Shown: positions 2,730 to 21,312 of the stretch, piece after piece
How positions within the stretch are numbered: the stretch's first letter is position 1
Layout: each line of letters starts with the position of its first letter
Source of the DNA: Pseudomonas sp. PDM05
GTDB lineage: Bacteria > Pseudomonadota > Gammaproteobacteria > Pseudomonadales > Pseudomonadaceae
Direction: 5' to 3'
DNA: 64,000 nucleotides
NCBI RefSeq assembly: GCF_014851685.1
Contig: NZ_JACVAC010000001.1
Span: forward strand, 372,001-436,000
Position numbers and translations under genes: made by a program
The notes under the pieces: model-generated
What the model saw: only the letters and a program-made list of their open reading frames with translations
Told to the model about the DNA's origin: nothing
The model's database searches: none

Positions 2730-4505
2730 CTAGTGCTTGGCCACCAGTTCCTTGGGCAACTTGAAGGTCCAGAGCATGCCGCCCTGGTTGAAGTCCTTCA
2801 CGCGCTTGGCCACTTCACCGCCCCACAACGGCACTGCGCCACCCCAGCCGGAGACCACCGAGACGTACTGTTCACCGTCCATGTCCCAGGTCACCGGCGA
2901 GCCGAGCACGCCGGAGCCGGTCTGGAACTCCCAGACTTTCTCGCCGGTCTTGGCGTTGAACGCTTGCAGGAAACCTTCCGGCGTGCCGGTGAACACCAGG
3001 TTGCCCTTGGTGGTCAGCACCCCGCCCCACAGCGGCGCGAAGTTCTTGTGGCGCCACACTTCCTTGCCGGTTTTCGGGTCGATGGCGCGCAGCACGCCGA
3101 TGTAGTCCTCGTTCAACGGCTTGATGGTGAAGCCCGCACCGAGGAACGCCGCGCCTTTCTTGTAGGCGATGCCTTCGTTCCAGATGTCCATGCCCCACTC
3201 GTTGGACGGCACGTAGAACAGCCCGGTGTCGCGGTTGTAGGCCATTGGCATCCAGTTCTTCGCACCGAGGAACGCCGGCGCTACGAACACCGAAGTGCCC
3301 TTGGTTTCACTGCCCGGCGCGCCGGGGCGGCTGGCTTCGTTGTAGATCGGCCGACCGTTTTTATCCAGGCCGGTGGCCCAGGTGATCTTGTCCACGAACG
3401 GGAAGCCACGGATGAATTTGCCGTTGGTGCGGTCCAGCACGTAGAAGAAGCCGTTGCGGTCGGCGGTAGCCGCCGCTTTGATTTCCTTGCCGCCTTCGGT
3501 GTAGTTGAACGAGATCAGCTCGTTCACGCCGTCAAAGTCCCAACCGTCGTGGGGGGTGCTCTGGAAGTGCCATTTGATGGTGCCGTCGTCCGGGTTCAGC
3601 GCCAGGCGCGAAGACGAATAGAGGTTGTCGCCCGGGCGCAGGTGGGAGTTCCACGGCGCCGGGTTGCCGGTGCCGAACAGCAGCAGGTTGGTTTCCGGAT
3701 CGTAGTAGCCGCCCAGCCACGGCGCCGCACCGCCGGTCTTCCACAGGTCGCCGGGCCAGGTCTTGCCCGCCTCGCCGCCGGAAATACCGTTCTCCACCGC
3801 CTTGCCGTCCTTGTACACGTAGCCCATATGGCCTTCGACAGTCGGACGGGTCCACAGCAGGTCGCCGTTTTTCGGGTCATAGGCTTCGATCTTGCCGACC
3901 ACGCCGAACTCGCCACCGGCCACGCCGGTGATCAGCTTGCCGTTGATCACCAGGGGCGCGGCGCTGATGGAGTAGCCTTCCTTGTGGTCGGCCACCTTCT
4001 TGCTCCACACCACCTTGCCGGTGTCCTTGTTCAACGCCACCAGCTTGGCGTCAAGGGTGCCGAAGAACACCAGGTCGCCATACAGCGCCACGCCACGGTT
4101 GATCACGTCGCAGCACGGACGGATGTCATCGGGCAGGCGCGCGTCGTATTGCCAGAGTTTCTTGCCGGTGCGCGCATCCACCGCGAACACCCGCGAATAG
4201 GAACCGGTGAGGTACATCACCCCGTCCTTGACCATCGGTTGCGCCTGCTGGCCGCGCTGTTTTTCACCGCCAAACGAAAACGCCCAGACCGGGCGCAGGT
4301 CCTTGACGTTGTCCACGTTCAGCGTATCCAGCGGGCTGTAGCGCTGGCCCTGCACGCCGAGGCCGTTGGTGACGATCTGCTCGGGGTTTTTCGGGTCCTG
4401 GAGAATGTCCTGGTCGGTCACGGCGGCCAGGGCCTGGCCGGATAACAGGATGGCACCGAGCAACACACTCAAGGCGAAGGGTTGGCGGCGTGCGGGTTGG
4501 GTCAT
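2730..4505 (-). CDS. pedH: PQQ-dependent alcohol dehydrogenase, lanthanide type (PedH-like)
   Basis: This is a 591-residue eight-bladed quinoprotein with a signal peptide (about residues 1-27, ending ALAAV). It oxidises primary alcohols in the periplasm with PQQ. Adjacent Cys residues C131-C132 (IRPCCDV) form the ring disulfide typical of these enzymes. The catalytic region reads HDGWDFDG: D323 is the catalytic Asp and D325, two residues later, is the extra acidic ligand that marks lanthanide-dependent members. The paralogue at 7901-9796 has Ser at that place. Tryptophan-docking repeats are plentiful. The gene starts a new unit after a 107-base gap holding the palindrome at 4536-4552 and no CTACT-type site, which suggests control separate from pedE. 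The metal preference is inferred from D325. Confidence 0.92.
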
Positions 4506-4535: not shown

Positions 4536-4552
4536 CCGGGAAATTTTCCCGG
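4536..4552. promoter_or_regulatory. GGGAAATTTTCC palindrome upstream of pedH
   Basis: CCGGGAAATTTTCCCGG is a perfect 17-base palindrome (8-bp arms, 1-base centre) lying 31 bases upstream of the pedH start. The central GGGAAATTTTCC recurs exactly at 7823-7834 upstream of pedE. It is a good candidate operator for a regulator acting on both dehydrogenase genes, for example the PedR2/EraR-type regulator at 10744-11370; that pairing is inference. Confidence 0.5.
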
Positions 4553-4612
4553 TCTGGTGCAGATTCTTGGGCGCAGGGGCCGTCGTCACAATTGACCGCA
4601 GTATCGAGTTTG

Positions 4613-5542
4613 CTAGTTCCTTAGTAGCGGGTGCATCTGTTCGCGCTCGTAGCCCGGGTACAGGTGGCTGACGCTGCGGATCAATTCATAGCGGCTCAGG
4701 CTGATGGCGGCGAAGCGCTCGGGGATCGGGCTGCGGATCATCTCGGTCATGTCGCTGCCGTTGGCGGCACCGTCGCGCAACAGTTGATCGAGCCAGGTCA
4801 GGTAGTCGCGCATCTGTTCGAAGGGTTGCGCATCCGTGGCGATCGGGCCGTGACCGGGCACCACCAGGGTCCAGGGCAACCCTTGCAGAGTGGTGATGTC
4901 GGCCAGCCAGGCGGCGAGTCCGGGGCTGTTGGGGGTGGTCAGGGCGCGTTGGTAGAAGACCAGGTCGCCGGTAAACAATACGCCGGTGCTCTGGTCAAGA
5001 ATCGCCAGGTCGGCGCCGGTGTGCCCGGTCAGCGCCAGCAGGCGCAGATCATGATTGCCGAAGCTGCGCACACCGGGCTCCAGCACTTGGCCCGGCAACA
5101 CCACTTCTGTGCCGCGCATCCAGTCGCCGACCATGCGATAGAGGTTTTCCGCCATGCTGTCGCCTTGCTCGTGCAACAGCTTTGTGGTGTTGGCCAGGGC
5201 GCCAATGGGCACATCCTTGAACGCCTGATTGCCCAAGGCGTGGTCGGGGTGATGATGGGTCAGCAACACCTGGATCACCGGTTTGGACGTGACACTGGCG
5301 ATGGCCTGGCGCAGCGCTTCGCCGTAGCGTCTGGACGGCCCGGTGTCGATCACCACCACGCCCGCCTCGGTGACGATAAACGCCACATTGACGATATTGC
5401 CGCCATTGGCCTTGGCGAAATTCTCGGTGCTGCCTTCCAGCAGCCAGGTGCCTTCGGCGATCTGCCGGGGTTTGAGGGCATAGTCCATGTCGGCCATGGC
5501 GGGCAGGCTCAGGGCCAGGCATAACAACAGTATCCAGCGCAT
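4613..5542 (-). CDS. Quinoprotein-associated metallo-beta-lactamase-fold hydrolase
   Basis: The start at 5542 (MRWILLLCLALSLPAMA) gives 309 residues with a clear signal peptide, so the protein is periplasmic. The metal-binding motif is LLTHHHPDHALGN near residue 90, with later GHTGAD, FTGDLVF and VPGHGPI motifs supplying the remaining ligands. This matches the zinc hydrolase family found beside PQQ dehydrogenases (quinoprotein relay system metallohydrolase). Its substrate is unknown. It is the last gene of a run pedF-pedG-SoxYZ-like-hydrolase with gaps of 3, -4 and 16 bases. A longer frame extends upstream to 5809 but has no signal peptide and overlaps the previous gene, so it was not used. 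Confidence 0.87.
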   Translation of the reverse strand: MRWILLLCLALSLPAMADMDYALKPRQIAEGTWLLEGSTENFAKANGGNIVNVAFIVTEAGVVVIDTGPSRRYGEALRQAIASVTSKPVIQVLLTHHHPDHALGNQAFKDVPIGALANTTKLLHEQGDSMAENLYRMVGDWMRGTEVVLPGQVLEPGVRSFGNHDLRLLALTGHTGADLAILDQSTGVLFTGDLVFYQRALTTPNSPGLAAWLADITTLQGLPWTLVVPGHGPIATDAQPFEQMRDYLTWLDQLLRDGAANGSDMTEMIRSPIPERFAAISLSRYELIRSVSHLYPGYEREQMHPLLRN

Positions 5543-5558
5543 GCCGCGCTCCTTCTGG

Positions 5559-6308
5559 TCAGGGGATGGCCGCGTCGAACTCGTTGCCGCTGTTGTCGCG
5601 CAGCACCAGGCGCGTCTGCCCGGCGCCCTCAATATCGAAGGCCAGGTTGGGGTTCTCGCTGACCGCCGGGAACAGCTCCAGCTCGGCCATGACCTGGCCG
5701 TTGTCCCCAAGCAGTTGGGCGTGGTTGAGGTAAAACTCGGGGATGCCGCTGACCATGCCGTTGTCCATCGGATGCGCGATCTGCACACGCACGCGGCTGT
5801 ACTCGCCACGGGGGTAACGCCCGCCGAGTACCTCGCCGATATGCTCTTCCCACCCTGGCTGGGTGCGCACCACGCTCGGCGCGGTGCAGCCGCCGCCGGC
5901 GGCGTCGATCAGGGTCGAGCCGACGTGCCACACGCCGTCATCGGTCAGCACGGCGGCGCGCAGCGGCGTGGCCTGCTCGATGCGGATGCGCAGCGACAGC
6001 CAGGGCAACACCCCGGCCTTGGGCTGAAAGTCGACGATTTTGGGCAGCGGGTTCAGCTCGGCCCAGGCGAAGATGCGCACCACCCTGCCCTTGAAGGCCC
6101 GCGCATCGATTTCCAACGGTACCTGCCGCGCGTCTTCGGCGAACGGCGGCGCCAACAGCTTGACCCGCTCGTCGAACACGAACGGCGCGTCGTTCAGGAA
6201 CTGCTTGTGATAGAACGCCCACATCACCGACGGCACCGGATCGACCTCACTGGCGGGCGCTGCCAACGGCAACAGGCAGGCCAGTAACACCGTCAGGCGC
6301 CAGTTCAT
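5559..6308 (-). CDS. Quinoprotein dehydrogenase-associated SoxYZ-like carrier protein
   Basis: This 249-residue protein has a signal peptide (MNWRLTVLLACLLPLAAPAS). The N-terminal half resembles SoxY, including a Cys in GGGCTAPS near residue 139. The C-terminal half, with IAHPMDNGM and an Ig-like ending, resembles SoxZ. SoxYZ proteins carry sulfur intermediates on a swinging Cys arm, but versions fused like this next to PQQ dehydrogenases have no proven cargo. The start overlaps the stop of the previous gene by ATGA, so translation is coupled. Role in the alcohol system is by association only. Confidence 0.85.
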   Translation of the reverse strand: MNWRLTVLLACLLPLAAPASEVDPVPSVMWAFYHKQFLNDAPFVFDERVKLLAPPFAEDARQVPLEIDARAFKGRVVRIFAWAELNPLPKIVDFQPKAGVLPWLSLRIRIEQATPLRAAVLTDDGVWHVGSTLIDAAGGGCTAPSVVRTQPGWEEHIGEVLGGRYPRGEYSRVRVQIAHPMDNGMVSGIPEFYLNHAQLLGDNGQVMAELELFPAVSENPNLAFDIEGAGQTRLVLRDNSGNEFDAAIP

Positions 6309-7180
6309 TGGTACATCTCGGGCACTTCGTAACGCAGGCCGTAACGGCTGTAGATCGCTTGCAGGCTGCCATCGCGGATCAGGCCTTCCAGCGCTTCCTC
6401 CACGGCATAGGCCAGTTGCCGATTGCTTTCATGCACCGCCATGCCGATCTCCCAACGTTGCCGCCCCATGTTCGGGTAAGCGTTTTGCGCCAGGGCCAGT
6501 TGCGGGTCGTTGGCCTGATGCACCTGCCAGTCAATCTCGCCACGCATCGCCATCACCGCATCGATCTCCCCGGCCTTCATCGCCGCAAAGGCCTGGGGCA
6601 CGTTGGGATAGTGACGGGTCTTGCGCGCCAGCATGCCGTTGAACACCGAGGTCAGGTAAAACGACGGCACGCTGTCGACTTCGACACCAATGGGGTGTTC
6701 CTCGAACACCGCCACGCTGGCGACCTTGTCCAGGCGGCGGCGGTCGTACGCCACCTGCCATTGTTCGTTCTGGTACGGCCCGAACATCACCACATGGCCG
6801 TTTTCCAATTCACCCTGGTCGTTGCGCCGCTGCGCGTATTCGTGGTCGTAAGGCGCGCGCAGCATCAGGTCGGCCAGTTGCTGGTTGTGCAACGGGCTGC
6901 CGCGCCAGATGTAGTCGCGCAGGTCGTCGTCGAGCTTCTCGCCGGCCGGCGCCCAGATCAGCTTCAGTTGCACGCCCAGGGCCTTGGCCAGCGCCTGGGC
7001 CAACTCCACGTCCACCCCGCGCGGGGTGCCGCCGTCGTCGAAACTGTAGGGGGCAAAATCCTTGTACACCGCCACCTTCAACTCGCCGGCGGCGATCATC
7101 TGGTCATAGCTGCGCACCTGGGCCTGTGCCGCCTGGCAGCACAGCAAGGCCAGGCCGAACACGACGCTGAGCAGGCGCAT
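6305..7180 (-). CDS. pedG: Quinoprotein-associated periplasmic substrate-binding protein (PedG/XoxJ type)
   Basis: This 291-residue protein has a signal peptide (MRLLSVVFGLALLCCQAAQAQ) and a class II periplasmic-binding fold of the amino acid-binding type: ELKVAVYKDFAPYSF near residue 33, DVELAQALAKALG, and GVEVDSVPSF. No ABC permease partner adjoins it. Proteins of this family sit beside PQQ dehydrogenases (XoxJ, PedG), and in methylotrophs they are thought to help enzyme maturation or cytochrome interaction rather than transport. It begins 3 bases after the cytochrome gene and overlaps the next gene. Confidence 0.87.
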   Translation of the reverse strand: MRLLSVVFGLALLCCQAAQAQVRSYDQMIAAGELKVAVYKDFAPYSFDDGGTPRGVDVELAQALAKALGVQLKLIWAPAGEKLDDDLRDYIWRGSPLHNQQLADLMLRAPYDHEYAQRRNDQGELENGHVVMFGPYQNEQWQVAYDRRRLDKVASVAVFEEHPIGVEVDSVPSFYLTSVFNGMLARKTRHYPNVPQAFAAMKAGEIDAVMAMRGEIDWQVHQANDPQLALAQNAYPNMGRQRWEIGMAVHESNRQLAYAVEEALEGLIRDGSLQAIYSRYGLRYEVPEMYQ

Positions 7181-7183
7181 GGC

Positions 7184-7645
7184 TTACTCCTCGACGCGCA
7201 CGGAATCCAGGTACGTACGCACCGCCCACAAGGCTTCCTGGCTCAGGTAGTCGGCCATTTTCGGCATGTATACACGGCCATCCCGCACCGCACCGTGGCG
7301 CACGCGCTCGACAAACCACTCATCCCCGGCGTCGCCTTCGTCGAGCATGCGCAGGTCGGGGGCGATGCCGCCGGACTTGGCTTCCAGACCGTGGCACGCG
7401 GCGCAGTTCTGGTTGTAGGCGGAGGAGCCGATTTCGACGGCCCTGTCGTGTTCAGGGGACTTGCGATACGGGTTGTTGGCGGCCCAGCCATCGGCGTCGA
7501 GCGGTACACCCGTATCCTTGATCGGCGTCAGTCCTTTGGTCTCCACAGCCTGGGGCACCACGTTGCCATGGGCCCAGACGTTACCCACACCGATCACACC
7601 CACCAACAAGCCGGCCACGAGCAAGGCATTGCGTTTTGTTGTCAT
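7184..7645 (-). CDS. pedF: Cytochrome c550 (PedF), electron acceptor for the PQQ alcohol dehydrogenases
   Basis: From ATG 7645 (MTTKRNALLVAGLLVGVIG) the protein has 153 residues, an N-terminal export signal and a single c-type heme site, NCAACHG, with later Met candidates for the axial ligand (for example YMPKMADYL). It accepts electrons from the quinoprotein dehydrogenases in the periplasm and passes them to the oxidase. The frame can be extended to 7672 (MRAILRTKI) but the extension weakens the signal sequence. It is the first gene of the minus-strand unit and is divergent from pedE, sharing a 255-base control region with the sites at 7749-7766 and 7822-7835. Confidence 0.9.
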   Translation of the reverse strand: MTTKRNALLVAGLLVGVIGVGNVWAHGNVVPQAVETKGLTPIKDTGVPLDADGWAANNPYRKSPEHDRAVEIGSSAYNQNCAACHGLEAKSGGIAPDLRMLDEGDAGDEWFVERVRHGAVRDGRVYMPKMADYLSQEALWAVRTYLDSVRVEE

Positions 7646-7748
7646 TATTTTTGTCCTCAGGATTGCACGCAAACCTCATTGCAGAGGCTATGGCAACCAT
7701 CTTAGGAACCCGCAGTCCCGCGCCGTATGCTGCTTTGGTGGTCGCGTC

Positions 7749-7766
7749 CTACTCCCTTGGTAGTAG
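7749..7766. promoter_or_regulatory. Candidate alcohol-oxidation regulator site 2 (pedF/pedE)
   Basis: CTACTCCCTTGGTAGTAG is a near-symmetric element (CTACT-N8-AGTAG, perfect arms). It lies 104 bases upstream of pedF and 135 bases upstream of pedE. It shares CTACTnCCTTGGTA with the site at 12812-12829. Confidence 0.6.
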
Positions 7767-7821
7767 GGCTTGTGGGGCACGTCCAAATCAGCGGCGGTTC
7801 GGGAAGTCTTCCCGGCAACAG

Positions 7822-7835
7822 CGGGAAATTTTCCG
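7822..7835. promoter_or_regulatory. GGGAAATTTTCC motif upstream of pedE
   Basis: CGGGAAATTTTCCG lies 66 bases before the pedE start. Its 12-base core is identical to the core of the palindrome upstream of pedH at 4536-4552, but the outer arm is shorter here. No other exact copy was noticed in the window. Confidence 0.48.
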
Positions 7836-7900
7836 TATCCAGCCAGCGCCTCGGCGCACCACCCTGTGCAGGCCAAAACCTCAACTGGGAACTGCAAACC

Positions 7901-9796
7901 ATGACAATAAGATCGCTCCCCTCCCGCTCCCCCGTAAGCCTTGCCGTGCAAGCCTTTTTGCTGGTGGGCAGCCTGTCCTTCAGTGCGGCAGGTTTTGCCG
8001 CCGCCGAACCTGCCGCCAAGCAAACGCGCAACGTCACCTGGGAAGACATCGCCAACGACCACCTGACCACCAAGGACGTGCTGCAGTACGGCATGGGCAC
8101 CAACGCCCAGCGCTGGAGCCCGCTGGCCCAGGTCAACGACAAGAACGTATTCAAGCTCACGCCGGCCTGGTCTTACTCGTTCGGCGATGAAAAACAACGC
8201 GGCCAGGAATCCCAGGCCATCGTCAGCGACGGCGTGGTCTACGTCACCGGCTCGTACTCCCGCGTATTCGCCCTCGACGCGAAGACCGGCAAACGCCTGT
8301 GGACCTACAACCACCGCCTGCCAGACAACATTCGCCCGTGCTGTGACGTGGTCAACCGCGGCGCAGCGATTTTCGGCGACAAAATCTACTTCGGCACCCT
8401 TGATGCGCGCCTGATCGCCCTCGACAAAAACACCGGCAAAGTGGTGTGGAACAAGAAGTTCGGCGACCACGCCGCCGGCTACACCATGACCGGTGCCCCC
8501 GTGCTGATCAAGGACAAGGTCAGCGGCAAGGTGCTGCTGATCCACGGCAGCTCCGGCGATGAATTCGGCGTGGTCGGCCAGCTGTATGCGCGCGACCCGG
8601 ACACCGGCGAAGAAGTGTGGATGCGTCCGTTCGTGGAGGGCCACATGGGCCGCCTCAACGGCAAGGACAGCACCCCGACCGGCGACGTCAAGGCACCTTC
8701 GTGGCCGGATGACCCGACGACCGAAACCGGCAAGGTCGAGGCCTGGAGCCACGGCGGCGGCGCACCTTGGCAGAGCGCAAGCTTCGATGCCGAGACCAAC
8801 ACCATCATCGTCGGCGCCGGCAACCCCGGCCCGTGGAACACCTGGGCGCGCACGTCCAAGGACGGCAACCCCCACGACTTCGACAGCCTCTACACCTCCG
8901 GCCAGGTCGGCGTCGACCCAAGTACCGGGGAAGTGAAGTGGTTCTACCAGCACACACCAAACGATGCCTGGGACTTCTCCGGCAACAACGAACTGGTGTT
9001 GTTCGACTACAAGGGCAAAGACGGCAAAGTGGTCAAGGCCACCGGCCACGCCGACCGCAACGGTTTCTTCTATGTGGTGGACCGCAACAACGGCAAGCTG
9101 CAAAACGCCTTCCCGTTCGTGGACAACATCACCTGGGCCAGCCACATCGACCTCAAGACTGGCCGCCCCGTCGAGAACGAAGGCCAACGCCCAGCCAAAC
9201 CGTTGCCGGGTGAAACCAAAGGCAAGCCGGTGGAGGTGTCGCCGCCGTTCCTCGGCGGCAAGAACTGGAACCCCATGGCCTACAGCCAGGACACCGGCCT
9301 GTTCTACATCCCGGGCAACCAGTGGAAAGAGGAATACTGGACCGAAGAGGTCAACTACAAGAAGGGCTCGGCGTACCTGGGCATGGGTTTCCGCATCAAG
9401 CGCATGTATGACGATCACGTCGGCACCCTGCGGGCGATGAACCCCACTACCGGCAAGGTGGTGTGGGAGCATAAGGAACACCTGCCACTGTGGGCCGGCG
9501 TGCTGGCGACCAAGGGCAACCTGGTGTTCACCGGCACCGGCGACGGATTCTTCAAAGCCTTCGACGCGAAAACCGGCAAGGAGCTGTGGAAGTTCCAGAC
9601 CGGCAGCGGCATCGTCTCCCCGCCGATCACCTGGGAACAGGATGGCGAGCAGTACATCGGCGTGACCGTCGGCTACGGCGGCGCGGTGCCGTTGTGGGGC
9701 GGCGACATGGCCGAGCTGACCAAGCCGGTGGCACAGGGCGGGTCGTTCTGGGTATTCAAGATTCCGAGTTGGGATCTGAAAACCGCCCAACAATAA
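7901..9796 (+). CDS. pedE: PQQ-dependent alcohol dehydrogenase, calcium type (PedE/ExaA)
   Basis: From ATG 7901 the protein has 631 residues with a signal peptide (about residues 1-37, ending FAAAEPA). It is a periplasmic quinoprotein ethanol dehydrogenase. It shares the vicinal disulfide (IRPCCDV) and Trp-docking repeats with the 2730-4505 enzyme, but the active-site stretch is NDAWDFSG. D358 is the catalytic Asp, and position 360 is Ser instead of the extra Asp, as in calcium enzymes. It is longer than the PedH-like paralogue because of an insertion around residues 245-275 ([15 protein letters not shown]). It is divergent from pedF; a perfect inverted repeat (9813-9944) follows the stop. 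A longer upstream frame to 7727 has no export signal at its start and was rejected. Confidence 0.93.
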
Positions 9797-10743: not shown

Positions 10744-11370
10744 TCACCCCGCCACCCGCACCACCCCCATATCAATCCCCACATGCACCAACTCCGCATG
10801 GGAACTCACCTGCAACTTGCTCTTGAGCAAAGTCAGGTGGTTGGACACCGTCTTGCTGCTGATACTCAGCTGTTCGGCAATCTGCCGCGCCGGGGTGCCT
10901 TTGGCGAGCATCAGGAAAATCTCCAACTCCCGTGGTGTCATGCTGTGCAAACGCGGGTCGGTGGGCTGGCAGGCGAGTTGGGTTGCCAGGGGTTGTTCAA
11001 TGTAGGCGTGGCCATCGAGGATGCGCCGCACCGCTTCGATCAACACCTGGGGCGCCGAGCTTTTGGTCAGGTAGCCCGCCGCGCCGGCGTCGAGCGCCTG
11101 GCGCACCAATGGCAGTTCATCGTGCATGCTGAAAAACAGCACACGCAGTTGCGGCAAGCGCTGGCGCAGGCGCCGGGTGGTTTCCAGGCCGCTGATGCCG
11201 GGCAAACCGAAGTCCATGATCACCAGATTCGGCACCGCCTCGTGTACCCGCGCCAAGGCTTCTTCGCCGCTGGCCGCCTCGCGCACTTCAATGGCCGGCA
11301 ACAACGCGCGCAACAAACTGGCATAACCCTGGCGAACCACGGCGTGGTCATCCACCAACAGAATATTCAT
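10744..11370 (-). CDS. NarL/LuxR-family response regulator (EraR/PedR2-like)
   Basis: The start at 11370 (MNILLVDDHAVVRQGY) gives 208 residues. The receiver domain has the acidic pair D7-D8, phosphoacceptor D53 (LVIMDFGLPG) and the conserved Lys in YLTKSSAP. A LuxR-type HTH follows at about 140-205 (LTPREXEIF-like start, SKTVSNHLTLLKSKL). Its ATG overlaps the TGA of the sensor kinase gene (ATGA), so the two are translated together. The position next to the pentapeptide gene and pedE matches EraR of P. aeruginosa and PedR2 of P. putida; in P. putida PedS2/PedR2 sets the lanthanide switch between pedE and pedH. The palindrome shared by these two promoters is a candidate target. Confidence 0.85.
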   Translation of the reverse strand: MNILLVDDHAVVRQGYASLLRALLPAIEVREAASGEEALARVHEAVPNLVIMDFGLPGISGLETTRRLRQRLPQLRVLFFSMHDELPLVRQALDAGAAGYLTKSSAPQVLIEAVRRILDGHAYIEQPLATQLACQPTDPRLHSMTPRELEIFLMLAKGTPARQIAEQLSISSKTVSNHLTLLKSKLQVSSHAELVHVGIDMGVVRVAG

Positions 11371-12629
11371 GACGCCTCCACAGGCATGTCCAACGCCAGC
11401 GCCCAACCGGCGCCGGGATGACTGATGATCTTCAATTCGCCGCCCAAACAGCGCGCACGTTCATACATCGAATGCAGGCCCACACCGCGCCGCTGAGGCT
11501 GCTGCGCGCCGTGGCCGTTGTCGCGCACCCACAGGCGCAGGCGCGTACCGCGATGCTGCAAACGCACGCGCACCTGGCTGGCACCGGCGTGGCGCACGAT
11601 GTTGGTCAAGGCTTCCTGGAGCAAGCGATACAGGTGGGTCTTGTCGGCCGGGGACAGCGGCGGCAGCGCCTCGCTGACCTGCAACTGGCAGTCGATGCCA
11701 TGGCTGGCACGCCATTGCGTCACCAACATGCCGAACGCCTCGGCCATCGGCAGGTGTTGCAGGGCCACCGGGTAAAGGTCGTGGACCAGTTCGCGAAAGC
11801 CCTGCTGCAAGTGGTCGCAGTGTTCTTCCAGCAGATGCACGGTACGCGTCAGCGTGGCGGGTTGATGGGCGATCAGCGGCAACAGGCACACCTGGGCGCG
11901 AATCCCCGCCAGGTACTGGCCGAGGTCATCGTGCAGGGTCTGGGCCAGGCGGGTGCGCTCTTGTTCCTGCACCGCCAGCAGGGTTTGGGTCAGCCGGGTG
12001 TTGTCGGTGCGCGCCTGTTCGAGGGCATCGGTCATGCGGTTGAAATGCCGCGCCAGTTGCTGCGCCTCCGGCACCCCGGCGCCGCGCAGGCGCACATTGA
12101 GACGGCCGCTGCACACGTGCTGCAGGGCCAACAGCAATTCGTCCAGCACGCCCATGCCACGGCGCACCGCCCAGCGAATGGTCAACAGGCTCAGGGCCAA
12201 TGCCAGCGCACACAGGCCCAGCAGTTGCTGCAAGGAATCCCAGACCTCATCGATCTCGTCACGCGGGTCGACGCCGATGGACACGCGCCGGCCATCGGCC
12301 AGGTCGAGCACCTCGGCACTGTGGCGCGCCTGGGCAAACAGCAGGCGCCCGAGCCACGCATCCAGCCCCTCTTGCTCCGGCGCGAGCGGGGTTTCATCTG
12401 CGCCCAACCAGTGCACGCGCACATGGCGCAGGCTGGCCGTGAGGCGTGGTTGCAGGCTGGCCGGATCGCGCACGGCGGTTTCACTCAGGTAATGCACCAC
12501 CGCTTCGGCCGATTGCAACTCGCGCTCCACATCCGCCAGGGCCTGATGCATCAGCAACGCCGTGCAGGCGCAGGTGACCAGCGCGAAGAAACCGCACACC
12601 CACAGGTTGATCCGCCACAGCGCCGACAT
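11367..12629 (-). CDS. Membrane sensor histidine kinase (EraS/PedS2-like)
   Basis: From ATG 12629 (MSALWRINLWVCGFF) the kinase has 420 residues. It has TM1 at about 8-30, a periplasmic sensor segment of about 100 residues, TM2 at about 134-153, a HAMP segment, a HisKA_3 motif with phosphoacceptor H233 (AQTLHDDLGQYL), and an HATPase domain with NIVRHAGA (N box) and a C-terminal VGLHSMYERA. It is a NarX/UhpB-type partner for the LuxR regulator that overlaps its end. The frame continues to 12785, but that upstream part is out of keeping with the family and overlaps the small ORF at 12632-12748. The signal is unknown; lanthanide or calcium status is the inferred one by analogy with PedS2. Confidence 0.87.
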   Translation of the reverse strand: MSALWRINLWVCGFFALVTCACTALLMHQALADVERELQSAEAVVHYLSETAVRDPASLQPRLTASLRHVRVHWLGADETPLAPEQEGLDAWLGRLLFAQARHSAEVLDLADGRRVSIGVDPRDEIDEVWDSLQQLLGLCALALALSLLTIRWAVRRGMGVLDELLLALQHVCSGRLNVRLRGAGVPEAQQLARHFNRMTDALEQARTDNTRLTQTLLAVQEQERTRLAQTLHDDLGQYLAGIRAQVCLLPLIAHQPATLTRTVHLLEEHCDHLQQGFRELVHDLYPVALQHLPMAEAFGMLVTQWRASHGIDCQLQVSEALPPLSPADKTHLYRLLQEALTNIVRHAGASQVRVRLQHRGTRLRLWVRDNGHGAQQPQRRGVGLHSMYERARCLGGELKIISHPGAGWALALDMPVEAS

Positions 12630-12631
12630 GC

Positions 12632-12748
12632 CTAGCGCGCCAGCACAGTCGGCACGAGCGCCGCCGAGCGCGGTGCGTGGGGTCGGTCGATACCGATCAG
12701 GCTGACGATCAGCAGGAACGGCAAGAGCAACGCCTTGATAATTCGCAT
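12632..12748 (-). CDS. Small hydrophobic peptide coupled to the sensor kinase (38 aa)
   Basis: ATG 12748 opens MRIIKALLLPFLLIVSLIGI, followed by a polar tail (DRPHAPRSAALVPTVLAR) and TAG. Residues about 3-20 form one membrane or signal segment. Its stop ends 2 bases before the kinase ATG, and the kinase has no strong ribosome binding site of its own, so translation is probably coupled. A G-rich stretch (GCGGGGG) precedes the start. It is too short for routine gene calling. Function is not known; it could be a leader peptide, a small membrane partner of the kinase, or a chance frame. Confidence 0.45.
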   Translation of the reverse strand: MRIIKALLLPFLLIVSLIGIDRPHAPRSAALVPTVLAR

Positions 12749-12811
12749 GATCGTGCAACCCCCGCAGCGGATACTGGAGCCCCATGCTAAAACCGCACCG
12801 CGTGCGGCGGG

Positions 12812-12829
12812 CTACTACCTTGGTACTGC
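12812..12829. promoter_or_regulatory. Candidate alcohol-oxidation regulator site 3
   Basis: CTACTACCTTGGTACTGC lies 76 bases upstream of the substrate-binding protein gene at 12905, and 64 bases upstream of the divergent small peptide/kinase unit. It matches the site at 7749-7766 in 14 of 18 positions. Confidence 0.58.
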
Positions 12830-12904
12830 CCCAGCGCTACTTTCTGCATATTTGCAGGGGTAACCGGGCTTTATATGCTGGCGCCAACTGTCTTGGAGTG
12901 CCTT

Positions 12905-17244: not shown

Positions 17245-17910
17245 ATGTACAAAATCCTGATTGCCGACGATCACCCGCTGTTTCGCGAGGCGATCCACAA
17301 CGTCATCAGCGACGGCTTTCCCGGCAGCGAAGTGATGGAAACCGCCGACCTCGACAGCGCCCTCGCGCTGACCCAGGACCACGACGACCTTGACCTGATC
17401 CTGCTGGATTTGAACATGCCCGGCATGCACGGCCTCAATGGCCTGATCAACCTGCGCAACGAATCGCCGACCATCCCGGTGGTGATCGTCTCGGCCGAGC
17501 AGGACAAGCAGATCGTGCTGCAAGCCATCACCTACGGCGCCGTGGGGTTCATCACCAAGTCGTCGCCGCGCCAACAAATGACCGAAGCGATCCAGCAGAT
17601 CCTCAACGGCAACGTATACCTGCCGCCCGACATCATCCGCACCCAGAAAAACCCCAGCCAACGCCGCATGAACGACACCCCGGGCTTTGCCCCGGAGCTG
17701 CTGCAGGCGCTGACCCGCAAGCAATTGCTGGTGCTGGAGCGGATGACCAAGGGCGAATCGAACAAGCAGATCGCCTACACGCTGGAGATTGCCGAAACCA
17801 CGGTGAAGGCCCATGTGTCGGCGATCCTGCGCAAGTTGAATGTGCATAACCGGGTGCAGGCGATTCTGAGTGCCGGCGATATCGACTTCGGCTCCTACCT
17901 GCGCCGCTGA
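17245..17910 (+). CDS. agmR: LuxR-family response regulator (AgmR/ErbR/PedR1)
   Basis: This 221-residue protein has receiver residues D8-D9, phosphoacceptor D55 ([13 protein letters not shown]) and FITKSSPR. The C-terminal HTH ([22 protein letters not shown], then [15 protein letters not shown]) is of the LuxR type. AgmR/ErbR activates the quinoprotein ethanol oxidation genes and pqq genes in Pseudomonas. It is the best candidate to bind the CTACT-type sites found upstream of five units in this island; that link is inferred. Its likely kinase partner is the soluble hybrid kinase encoded convergently at 18042-19940. Confidence 0.9.
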
Positions 17911-18041: not shown

Positions 18042-19940
18042 TCAGGGGCGGCCGAGTAAGTGACTCATCGCTGTCTTTAACTTCATCGGCCGCACGGGCT
18101 TGTGCATCAACGTATGCCCCAACTCACGAATCTGCTGCTTGAGTTCATTGCTGTAGTTGGCGGTAATCATCAACGCCGGGATCGCAGTGCCGCGCCGGGC
18201 GTTGATGCGGGCCACGGCGTCGACGCCGTTCTGGTCGTCGTCGAGGTGGTAGTCGGCGATCAGCAGGTCCGCCTCGGCATGGTAGTTGTCCACCTGCCGG
18301 GCCAGGTCCTGTTCCGACAAGGCGGTGGTCACCCGGCAACCCCAGCCTTCGAGCAAGGTGCGCATGCCCGCGCAGATCGCCGCGTCGTTATCCAGCACCC
18401 ACACCCGCGCGCCCTGCAAACGTTCCAGCAGCGCTTCGCTCATGCACGGCATCGGCAGCGACTTGGGCGCGGTGGCGCTGAGCGGCACTTCCACGCTAAA
18501 CATCGAGCCCTTGCCCGGCCAGGATTTGACGCTGATGCGATGGCCAAGGATTCCGGCGATTTTCTCGACGATGGCCAGGCCCAGGCCCAGCCCGCGATCC
18601 TGGTCCGGGCGCTGGACGTCACCGCGCTTGAACTCCTGGAAAATCTCCTCCAGGCGCTCCTCGGCAATGCCCATGCCGCTGTCCCACACCTGGATCAGCA
18701 AACGCTGCTGCTGGCGTCGGCAGCCCAGCACCACACGGCCCTGGTAGGTGTAGCGCAGCGCGTTGCTGAGCAGGTTGCGCAGGATTCGTGCGAGCAGCTG
18801 GATGTCGCTGCGCACCAGCGCCGAGCAGCCGACAAAGTGCAGCTCCAGGCCTTCGGCGCGGGCCAGTTCGGTGTATTCGGCGGCGAGGTTTTCCAGCAGT
18901 TCGCTGAGGGCGAACGGCGCCATGTCGGCCTTGATCACCCCGGCGTCGAGTTTGGAAATATCCACCAGGGTGCCCAGCAGGTTTTCCACGTCTTCCAGGG
19001 AGTTGCTCACGTTGCGCACCAGGGTTTCGCTGGGGCGCTCCAGCAGTGCGCTGGTAAACAGGCGTGCGGCGTTGAGCGGTTGCAGTAAGTCATGGCTGAC
19101 GGCGGCGAGGAACTTGGTTTTCGACAGGTTGGCCTTTTCCGCCTCTTGTTTGGCTTCGCGCAGGCGGGTTTCCATGCGTCGGCGCTCGTCGATTTCCTGC
19201 AACAACTGATCGTTGAGCGCAGTCAGTTCCGAGGTGCGCTGGGCCACGCGCTGCTCCAGGTGCTGATAGGCCTGGTGCAGGGCCTCGGCGGTGCGGCGGC
19301 GTTCGGTGATGTCGCGGATCAGCACGAAGATCCCCACCACCTCGCCACTGGCGAGCAGGTTGGGCACGTAGGAGCGCAGCATGTAGCGCTCCTGGTTGTT
19401 GATGTTGGTTTCGGCGAATTCGAAGGTCACGCTCTCACCCGCCAGGGCGCGGGCGACGTAAGCGTCGAGGCGCTGGCAGTGCTGCTCGCTGTGCACTTCG
19501 CGCAGGCTCTGGCCGAGCATCATGCCGCGCGGCCAGCAGTACCATTCTTCGTAGACTTTGTTGGTGAACTCGTAGACCAGGTCGGCGTTGAGGTAGCCGA
19601 TCAGCGCCGGCACGTTGTCGGTGATCAGACGAATCCAGCGTTCACTTTCCTGGGCTTTTTGCGCCGCGGCCTGCTCGCCGCGCAGGGTTTCGGCGCGCAG
19701 CCGCGCGTTGATCAGCAGGTGGTTGCTGGCCTTGAGTTCGGCCATCGCCTGGTTCAGCGCGTCGGTGCGTTCGCGCACCTGTTCGGCAAGCACCACCGAA
19801 TGCTGGAACGTGGTGTACGGGTTGTTGCCCTGGGTCATGCCGGATTCGATGCGCTCGATCAGGGCCGCGTTGATCCGCGCCAATTTGTGATTGGCCTGTT
19901 GCAGCTGGGCGACCTGGGCGCGCAGTTCAGCGTCGGCCAC
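18042..19940 (-). CDS. Soluble PAS-containing hybrid histidine kinase (ErcS'/PedS1-like)
   Basis: A GTG start at 19940 is chosen because it overlaps the FIST gene end by 14 bases and begins a coherent coiled coil (ADAELRAQVAQLQQANHKLAR). The protein has 632 residues and no membrane segment. It has coiled coils at about 1-100 and 220-275, a PAS domain at about 100-215, HisKA with H283 (AAVSHDLLQPLN), HATPase (NLLSNALRYT; GLGLGLAIVEKI) and a C-terminal receiver with D563 (LLIADYH). Its position and form match the hybrid kinase that works with ErbR/AgmR. Being cytosolic and co-encoded with FIST, it may take its signal from that protein. Confidence 0.87.
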   Translation of the reverse strand: MADAELRAQVAQLQQANHKLARINAALIERIESGMTQGNNPYTTFQHSVVLAEQVRERTDALNQAMAELKASNHLLINARLRAETLRGEQAAAQKAQESERWIRLITDNVPALIGYLNADLVYEFTNKVYEEWYCWPRGMMLGQSLREVHSEQHCQRLDAYVARALAGESVTFEFAETNINNQERYMLRSYVPNLLASGEVVGIFVLIRDITERRRTAEALHQAYQHLEQRVAQRTSELTALNDQLLQEIDERRRMETRLREAKQEAEKANLSKTKFLAAVSHDLLQPLNAARLFTSALLERPSETLVRNVSNSLEDVENLLGTLVDISKLDAGVIKADMAPFALSELLENLAAEYTELARAEGLELHFVGCSALVRSDIQLLARILRNLLSNALRYTYQGRVVLGCRRQQQRLLIQVWDSGMGIAEERLEEIFQEFKRGDVQRPDQDRGLGLGLAIVEKIAGILGHRISVKSWPGKGSMFSVEVPLSATAPKSLPMPCMSEALLERLQGARVWVLDNDAAICAGMRTLLEGWGCRVTTALSEQDLARQVDNYHAEADLLIADYHLDDDQNGVDAVARINARRGTAIPALMITANYSNELKQQIRELGHTLMHKPVRPMKLKTAMSHLLGRP

Positions 19941-21072
19941 GGGCAATGGCGACCCCGGTGAAGGTCTGGTTGATGTGCATGCCATTGAACTGTTCTCCGT
20001 AGGTATTGAAGCCCAGCACCCGTCTCTCGCGCAGGTAATTGCCGATGTGTTCGAGGTCGCCGTTGTCTTCCAACTCCATGCGGCGCAGGAAGCAGTCGCA
20101 GCCGATGGTCAGCAGCAGGTCGCCGAGGCGCGTGTGCAGGCCGTCGAACAGGCTTTGCAGGTTCGGCAGGATCGGCCCGGGCCGCATCACGGTGAGCACG
20201 ATGCCGTTTTCCACCGCACAGTAGAAACTCAGGCTGAGGTCTTCGTGCACTTGCTGGATAGCGCGTACGTAGTACTGGTCGTGGATACGCACTGCCAACG
20301 GGTGAGCGGCGAAGACGCGGTGGTCGAGGTCGGCCACGGCTACGCCGATGTGCCTGGCGTATTCTTCGGCGGCCGGTTCGGCGTTGAGTTCGAACACCCG
20401 GCGTGACGGGCTGTCGGCGCCGGTCACCACCAGTTTTTCGGTACGCGGCAGGATGTGGTGGGTGGTGAACACCTCGAAATCCAGCCAGGTATTGACCAGC
20501 ACCACCACCGCCGCGCCGCTGTGGAACACACCATTGAAGTACACGTGGGTGTGGGTGAGGAAGTTGTCGTCGCCGGCCGAACCGCCGAAGTGCGGGATGT
20601 CGCCCAGGGCCGCGCTGAGGGCGGCGAGGACCATTTCTTCCCGGCTCGACAGCCCGTCGAGCAAGGTCAGCGCGAAGGTGTTGCCCTTGATCGGCGCCAG
20701 GGTGTTGCTGCGACAGCCGCCGACCAGGCGTTCGACCATATCCTGGGCACCGATCAGGCTGAAGTGCTCGACTTGATCGATCAGCTCGGTGGCGATGGAA
20801 AAGTGCGCGTGGTTGAAGCCCATCGCGGTGATGCAGTTGCGTCCGTAACCCTGGGGCGTGATCTCGCCGGCACTGGTGCAGCCGACCACGCGCACCTTGC
20901 CGAAGCACTGTTGCAGCGCTTGGCCAAGGGCCTGCAGGTCATAGGACGCAGAGCAGAAAAACAGCACGAAACCCAGGTACGGGTGCAGCAACTGCCGGGC
21001 CAACTCTTCGGCGGCCTGCCCGGCATCGGTGGCCTGGGACATGGCACTGACTACGCCTTCACTGTTGTGCAT
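19927..21072 (-). CDS. FIST-domain sensory protein
   Basis: From ATG 21072 (MHNSEGVVSAMSQATDAGQ), with a GAGGGGGAACC ribosome binding site, the protein has 381 residues. It contains FIST N (about 20-220; GCTSAGEITPQGYG, FGGSAGDDNF) and FIST C (about 230-375; LARPL-like HPLAVR and GCDCFLRRMELED). FIST domains are thought to bind small ligands such as amino acids, and they often accompany signalling proteins. Its stop lies inside the start of the hybrid kinase gene, so they form a unit, with the site at 21122-21141 upstream. A longer frame to 21297 runs through a REPIN and was rejected. Confidence 0.86.
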   Translation of the reverse strand: MHNSEGVVSAMSQATDAGQAAEELARQLLHPYLGFVLFFCSASYDLQALGQALQQCFGKVRVVGCTSAGEITPQGYGRNCITAMGFNHAHFSIATELIDQVEHFSLIGAQDMVERLVGGCRSNTLAPIKGNTFALTLLDGLSSREEMVLAALSAALGDIPHFGGSAGDDNFLTHTHVYFNGVFHSGAAVVVLVNTWLDFEVFTTHHILPRTEKLVVTGADSPSRRVFELNAEPAAEEYARHIGVAVADLDHRVFAAHPLAVRIHDQYYVRAIQQVHEDLSLSFYCAVENGIVLTVMRPGPILPNLQSLFDGLHTRLGDLLLTIGCDCFLRRMELEDNGDLEHIGNYLRERRVLGFNTYGEQFNGMHINQTFTGVAIARGRR

Positions 21073-21121
21073 CGTTGGTTCCCCCTCTAAGGCGTCAGTG
21101 TACGAAGGCCGAGGGGTGGGC

Positions 21122-21141
21122 CCTATGCTACTTGGGTACTG
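21122..21141 (-). promoter_or_regulatory. Candidate alcohol-oxidation regulator site 5 (FIST)
   Basis: On the minus strand CAGTACCCAAGTAGCATAGG lies 49 bases upstream of the FIST start. It aligns with the reverse complement of site 3 (CAGTACCAAGGTAGTAG) if one inserted and one deleted base are allowed. Confidence 0.42.
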
Positions 21142-21206
21142 GGTGGGGGGATGCGTTGGGATGAATATCTCAAGATCACTGGAGATCAACATGTGGGAGG
21201 GCTTTT

Positions 21207-21312
21207 TGTGGGAGCGGGCTTGCTCGCGAAGGCGGTGGATCAGCCACTGAATCTGTTGACTGACACTCCGCTTTCGCGAGCAAGCCCGCTCCCACACAAG
21301 CCCGCTCCCACA
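21207..21312. repeat. REPIN 3 with an extra right end
   Basis: A full element (21207-21296) carries an added ACAAGCCCGCTCCCACA end copy to 21312, and a partial left end TGTGGGAGG at 21192. The extra ends look like slippage or nested insertion. It lies between the porin 3' end and the FIST promoter. Confidence 0.88.

Follow-up and report, generated by a model that had tools for sequence, protein, structure and literature searches.

In Pseudomonas putida KT2440, use of the calcium-type alcohol dehydrogenase PedE or its lanthanide-type counterpart PedH is controlled by the sensor kinase PedS2 and the response regulator PedR2. According to the available text of PMC6115532, PedS2 phosphorylates PedR2 in cultures without lanthanum, Asp53 being named as the phosphorylated residue, and this results in activation of pedE and contributes to repression of pedH. 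The accessible part of PMC13390443 reports that full pedE promoter activity needs PedR1 as well as PedS2-PedR2, that the pedS2R2 promoter depends on PedR1 only, and that PedR1 is thought to act directly on pedE as well. The exact switch mechanism is stated as unknown in the available portion of PMC11845868. For the related Pseudomonas aeruginosa system, the parts of PMC12997753 at hand describe EraR as a homologue of PedR2 (66% identity) and ExaA as a homologue of PedE (84%), and EraR is listed among regulators with predicted targets in the accessible text of a high-throughput systematic evolution of ligands by exponential enrichment (HT-SELEX) study (PMC8041468). Here, the ped cluster of Pseudomonas sp. 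PDM05 was analysed in a stretch of 64,000 nucleotides (contig NZ_JACVAC010000001.1, positions 372,001 to 436,000, forward strand), which is referred to as a whole as the window. The subject is an inverted repeat, GGGAA-N3-TTCCC, that is conserved upstream of both pedE and pedH and is very probably the operator bound by PedR2.

Mutant studies had established that activation of pedE and repression of pedH go through a single response regulator; the proposed DNA site was found in none of the literature text examined. The locus carries the same genes as KT2440, including a regulator with Asp53, and the direction of PedR2 action and the dependence on PedR1 were taken from PMC6115532 and PMC13390443. 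For KT2440, no operator was found in the available text of PMC6115532, to which the present analysis adds sites, their spacing and their positions; nor was such an operator found in the available text of PMC12997753, PMC13390443, PMC11845868, PMC8041468 or PMC13086498. Five spellings of the operator were not found in the literature text that was searched (subscription papers and supplements lay outside it), and a motif for EraR has possibly been published.

The features on which the argument depends are as follows (coordinates of the window).
2730..4505, minus strand: pedH, lanthanide-type pyrroloquinoline quinone (PQQ) alcohol dehydrogenase (TIGR03075; WDFDGVNE, extra Asp).
4538..4550, no strand: putative pedH operator GGGAAATTTTCCC (dyad 4536-4552), centre at about +13 of the predicted pedH transcript.
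4563..4568, minus strand: predicted pedH -10 element AAGAAT.
4586..4591, minus strand: predicted pedH -35 element TTGTGA (TTGTTG in most orthologues printed).
7801..7813, no strand: putative pedE operator site 1 GGGAAGTCTTCCC (dyad 7800-7814).
7823..7835, no strand: putative pedE operator site 2 GGGAAATTTTCCG, 22 bp past site 1.
7860..7865, plus strand: predicted pedE -10 element CACCCT (NANNNT).
7901..9796, plus strand: pedE, calcium-type PQQ alcohol dehydrogenase (TIGR03075; WDFSGNNE, Ser at the lanthanide position).
10744..11370, minus strand: pedR2, response regulator of the NarL/FixJ type with Asp at 53, proposed to bind the operator.
11367..12785, minus strand: pedS2, sensor histidine kinase.

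A preliminary description of this DNA had identified the two dehydrogenases as the lanthanide and the calcium enzyme, and this was borne out by the TIGR03075 matches and by the residue that we take to mark lanthanide enzymes, the extra Asp of PedH, in whose place PedE has Ser. It had also pointed to a palindrome before pedH and its 12-base core before pedE, and both are present in the sequence. The full dyad CCGGGAAATTTTCCCGG (4536-4552) is of odd length with a single unpaired central base and is separated by 30 bases from the minus-strand start codon of pedH (4503-4505). The 12-mer GGGAAATTTTCC (7823-7834) lies 66 bases from the pedE ATG (7901). The exact 12-mer is found twice in the window; a stronger pedE copy had been overlooked. 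This copy, GGGAAGTCTTCCC, lies 22 bp upstream of the 7823-7834 copy, makes up a perfect dyad of 15 bases when the flanking bases are included, and corresponds in position to the best pedE copy in the listed orthologues.

When one mismatch was allowed, the 12-mer had three matches in the window (0.25 expected; none of 100 shuffles reached three), one being the pedH site on the opposite strand. In the 6.03-Mb genome it occurs five times exactly: twice in the window and three times elsewhere, of which two copies lie within long open frames, whereas for the third (L002) the sole overlapping frame is one of 124 aa. The corresponding genome search with up to one mismatch returned 29 one-mismatch rows, eight of which were fetched. 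The longer form GGGAAANTTTCCC has a single occurrence in the genome, at pedH, and is present in 120 of 298 genus genomes, against 16 for the reversed control (manual count of the table). The core GGGAANNNTTCCC, that is GGGAA-N3-TTCCC, was found five times in the genome against three for the reversed pattern: at pedH (4538-4550), at pedE (7801-7813) and in three places within long reading frames. Further copies as extra regulon targets are unsupported, all core copies other than those at pedE and pedH being inside such frames. The 12-mer identity was rejected as a meaningful feature because orthologues retain GGGAA-N3-TTCCC and not the 12-mer, their downstream pedE site usually being GGGANNTTTTCCG. 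The conserved signal is GGGAA-N3-TTCCC, and identity over exactly 12 bases is peculiar to the PDM05 genome.

A comparison of orthologous promoters, named as a check in the preliminary description, showed the core to be conserved before both genes in the genus. For pedE, 126 promoters (113 distinct) were collected from 47 loci comprising the window and those relatives that had pedE in reach, from 50 genus genomes and from 29 of the 30 best family loci (L199 in that sample is the window itself). The relatives were taken from the best 80 of 591, and the family sample consisted of the 30 best-matching loci among 86 family genomes with PedE (the more distant genera g3, g4, g5, g7, g10 and g18 outside). 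In 124 of the 126 promoters, the distance between site 1 and the looser site 2 (GGGANNTTTTCCG) is exactly 22 bp (at most two mismatches in total), and no promoter has them at spacings of 15-21 or 23-33. The double site was also found in four further genera (coded g8, g9, g12 and g15). Twelve of the 50 fetched genus genomes have PedE without PedH and keep site 1 with at most one and site 2 with at most two mismatches. In having no PedH they are like EraR/exaA of P. aeruginosa; no genome in the analysis was identified as that species. EraR/exaA differs from the locus studied here in having no pedH partner, and therefore shows the activating arrangement only.

In 112 of the 113 distinct pedE promoters, a NANNNT hexamer lies 23 or 24 bases past site 2, against at most two promoters at any other offset from 10 to 35; the sole miss (L054) is a row that ends before the -10 region. 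If this hexamer is taken as the -10 element, the two sites are centred at about -65 and -43. They would thus stand at activator positions, site 2 being close to the class II centre of about -42. At pedH, TTGnnn and AAnAAT with an exact 17-bp spacer are present in 120 of 121 distinct promoters, and the palindrome follows at one constant distance in 117 of 121. The predicted start is at about 4556, so that the centre of the palindrome, at about +13, would lie just downstream of it, in a position expected of a repressor. A TATAAC directly after the palindrome had been considered as the pedH -10 element; it was dropped because the upstream 17-bp-spaced pair is kept while the distance from palindrome to start codon varies.

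NarL/FixJ-family regulators bind operators such as those of DosR, with GGGAC half-sites. The proposed ped operator is likewise a short inverted repeat with a GGGA half-site, but differs in its GGGAA half-site and 3-base centre.

The following mechanism is proposed. In cells without lanthanides, PedS2 would phosphorylate PedR2. At pedE, where the spacing of the two sites equals about two helical turns, both would be occupied by dimers of phosphorylated PedR2, and these would bring in RNA polymerase at a promoter whose -10 element is poor. At pedH, the same protein near +13, just past the 17-bp-spaced promoter, would block transcription. With lanthanides, PedS2 would cease to phosphorylate PedR2, the operators would empty, pedE expression would fall and pedH would be released. 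Taken together, we regard a PedR2 operator that acts according to its position as the best explanation of the data, and with high confidence. The preliminary description had ascribed opposite control of the two genes to different affinity, owing to the shorter arm at pedE. This is unsupported, pedE having two sites of which one is a full dyad; opposite control is better explained by site position.

The assignment to PedR2 is very probable because conservation of the pedH site tracks the presence of PedR2; the link to PedS2/PedR2 drawn in the preliminary description is hence very probably right. A search of 149 genus genomes detected 51 with PedE, 50 with PedR2 and 49 with both, the mismatched genomes (G035, G133 and G076) being fragmented or incomplete assemblies. 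PedH was found in 55, of which 16 are without both PedE and PedR2. Whole-genome searches for PedR2 in 50 genomes gave strong matches in 22 (E<=2e-85; four were controls) and none at 1e-40 in 28. Within the best 80 of 591 relatives, all 52 PedR2-positive rows have an intact pedH core, as do 18 of the 28 PedR2-negative ones (Fisher p 8e-6). For a wider set, 149 sequences were searched, of which 134 were usable, 121 non-identical and 119 placed in a tree (two with unknown PedR2 status were left out). L021 was dropped, as its genome and upstream sequence are those of L019. L057 (a draft) and L070 (a metagenome-assembled genome, MAG, with pedE and without PedR2) count as negative in the 80-row set and are outside the wider set and tree (identical copies, status unknown); L042, a MAG, was retained among the negatives. 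In this wider set the core is intact in 81 of 82 PedR2-positive and 24 of 37 PedR2-negative rows (p 5e-7).

Under the assumption that PedR2, once lost, is not regained, the tree implies about 17 losses; parsimony gave 15 changes, at least eight of them forced by well-supported branches. One core substitution falls on PedR2-positive branches (length 5.57) against 14 on PedR2-negative ones (1.83; p 3.7e-8). The 94 other pedH promoter columns have 945 and 304 changes, respectively (rate ratio 0.98), and the ratios of negative to positive branches are 1.13 for the element termed motif A (see below), 0.51 for the -35 element and 0.43 for the ribosome site. With PedR2 present, the core has about 100-fold fewer changes than the background columns. 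The pedH site is thus under constraint where PedR2 is present. A loose motif A pattern is intact in 54 of 82 PedR2-positive and 32 of 37 PedR2-negative rows (p 0.03, in the opposite direction); for the -35 element the corresponding counts are 78 of 82 and 37 of 37, and for the ribosome site 68 of 82 and 35 of 37. Among the genes missing together with PedR2, PedR2 alone carries a recognised DNA-binding domain.

Several observations weigh against the PedR2 operator. One PedR2-positive promoter (L172) deviates from the strict core, and the core is retained in the 24 PedR2-negative rows given above, for which recent loss of PedR2 fits two loci (L016 and L027) and residual function is possible. All 82 PedR2-positive rows have an intact -10 element AAGAAT, against 33 of the 37 negative ones (p 0.008). 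It is altered only in L180, L028, L064 and L066, all PedR2-negative (0 against 2 tree substitutions, p 0.06), and relaxation may therefore extend beyond the operator. A stricter independent-pairs test (treekit) on well-supported branches gave eight pairs, of which a mean of 1.8 agreed with expectation and none ran counter to it (median p 0.5), too few for a decision. The tree itself was computed from 540 pedH columns, with 24 of 116 inner branches well supported. Finally, a weaker pedE response persisting without PedR2 is reported in the available text of PMC13390443.

The PedR2-negative loci also carry traces of the missing genes. In 21 of the 28 among the best 80 of 591 relatives, the gap between pedF and pedA1, taken from one tblastn match start to the other, measures 181 to 758 bp, and pedE, pedD, pedR2 and pedS2 were not found in the fetched DNA of these 21 loci. 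Of the other seven, L070 has pedE, L062 and L069 have wider gaps, L066 has no pedA1 in reach, and for L042, L051 and L057 the fetched DNA was too short to judge the gap. Motif A is present in all 21 gaps (at most two mismatches), and the exact palindrome core in those of L016 and L027 alone. Among five gaps that were read out, both pedE sites are intact in L027, the sequence is cut within site 2 in L016, site 1 is decayed in L061 and L076, and no pedE promoter relic is left in the gap of L030. These relics, which are at varied stages of decay, would be direct traces of some losses of the calcium half. Their ends differ among loci, as expected of independent deletions, although later erosion could also leave this pattern. 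L016 and L027 combine the freshest relics with intact pedH sites, which matches the prediction of recent loss. Of the 21 loci, 20 retain a PedR1 candidate (88-96% identity); none was found in the 14.6-kb contig of the remaining one (L022). We consider it likely that one operator in two positions constitutes the whole switch, and that several Pseudomonas lineages independently deleted the pedE-pedD-pedR2-pedS2 unit, leaving a system for lanthanides only, with pedH under PedR1 alone and an orphaned operator to decay. By eye, the L061 gap holds a stretch resembling the start of pedD.

A second conserved element, motif A, was found close to the same promoters. The relevant features are listed below.
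4613..4627, minus strand: motif A CTACTAAGGAACTAG, proposed PedR1/AgmR site, overlapping the end of a hydrolase gene; centre at about -64 of pedH.
7749..7763, minus strand: motif A CTACCAAGGGAGTAG, proposed PedR1/AgmR site common to pedF and pedE.
12812..12826, minus strand: motif A with one mismatch GTACCAAGGTAGTAG, upstream of pedS2-pedR2 and pedA1.
7184..7645, minus strand: pedF, cytochrome c-550 (TIGR04494), divergent from pedE; the ATG at 7645 was picked from the sequence.
17245..17910, plus strand: candidate pedR1 (agmR), NarL-type response regulator, assigned by family and by its position beside a CXXCW-protein gene, proposed to bind motif A.

With at most one mismatch, motif A (CTACYAAGGNANTAG) has three matches in the genome, none of them outside the ped cluster, against six for the reversed pattern. 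Its probable binder is the alcohol-responsive activator PedR1/AgmR. Beside motif A upstream of pedA1 lies an element similar to TACTTTCTGCATATTT (window, about 12838-12858), which recurs in all five of the PedR2-negative gaps that were read out.

The assignments could be the reverse, with PedR1/AgmR binding the palindrome and PedR2 binding motif A. Both elements are present at pedE and pedH, and a direct action of PedR1 on pedE would suit this arrangement; but the pedS2R2 promoter, dependent on PedR1 and not on PedR2 in the accessible text of PMC13390443, carries motif A and not the palindrome (the best match to GGGAA-N3-TTCCC upstream of pedS2-pedR2 has five mismatches). Moreover, the PedR1 candidate is kept in 20 of the 21 PedR2-negative loci with the region in reach, yet there the palindrome relaxes and motif A does not. 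The exchange of binders is accordingly improbable. A role of the pedH palindrome in RNA, as a hairpin of the 5' leader with no protein site, would agree with its being a dyad in the predicted leader shortly before the start codon. It is rather less probable still, given that the core is also found upstream of the predicted pedE promoter, where it is doubled at a fixed spacing, and that conservation of the pedH site tracks PedR2.

A sigma-54 promoter at pedE, with a LuxR-type regulator and with the sites as enhancers, would parallel the case reported for Azospirillum brasilense exaA, which is mentioned as an open possibility in the available text of PMC6115532. Consensus matches with two to three mismatches occur in 29 of 127 promoters, against 16 of 127 after one shuffle. 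However, at any one offset downstream of site 2, GG-N10-GC is present in at most 14 of 127, so that no -24/-12 pair stands at a conserved place, and the -10-like hexamer stands at its fixed offset in nearly all pedE promoters; a sigma-54 promoter was rejected as very unlikely. Chance repetition of an AT-rich core between GC clamps would account for the three core copies inside frames, as many as in the reversed-pattern control, but is hardly credible given a position and sequence conserved in more than 100 promoters and the approximately 100-fold deficit of core changes with PedR2 present.

The PedR2 operator, if correctly assigned, makes the switch mechanism testable with few base changes and is a small, defined part for lanthanide-responsive promoters. 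Its decay marks lineages that have seemingly lost the switch and may need lanthanides for the alcohol route.

Besides pedE and pedH, the cluster contains the PedA1A2BC genes, pedF and the PedS2/PedR2 pair, and pedR2 lies about 1 kb from pedE, next to its proposed target. PedR2 matches full-length profiles of NarL/FixJ-type regulators (GacA, MctR, NarL and FixJ), below their cut-offs. In one genome (G125:C1:499098-499592, near L158), the PedR2 match ends at residue 161 of 208, which could mean an altered DNA-binding end; this locus has matches to both pedE sites and an intact pedH core. In G369, G379, G392, G400, G414 and G442, which belong to other genera of the family, the PedE matches contain one in-frame TAA each. 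The cluster is adjoined at 18042-21297 of the window by genes for an NahK/ErcS-type hybrid kinase (below the model cut-off) and the nitric-oxide sensor NosP.

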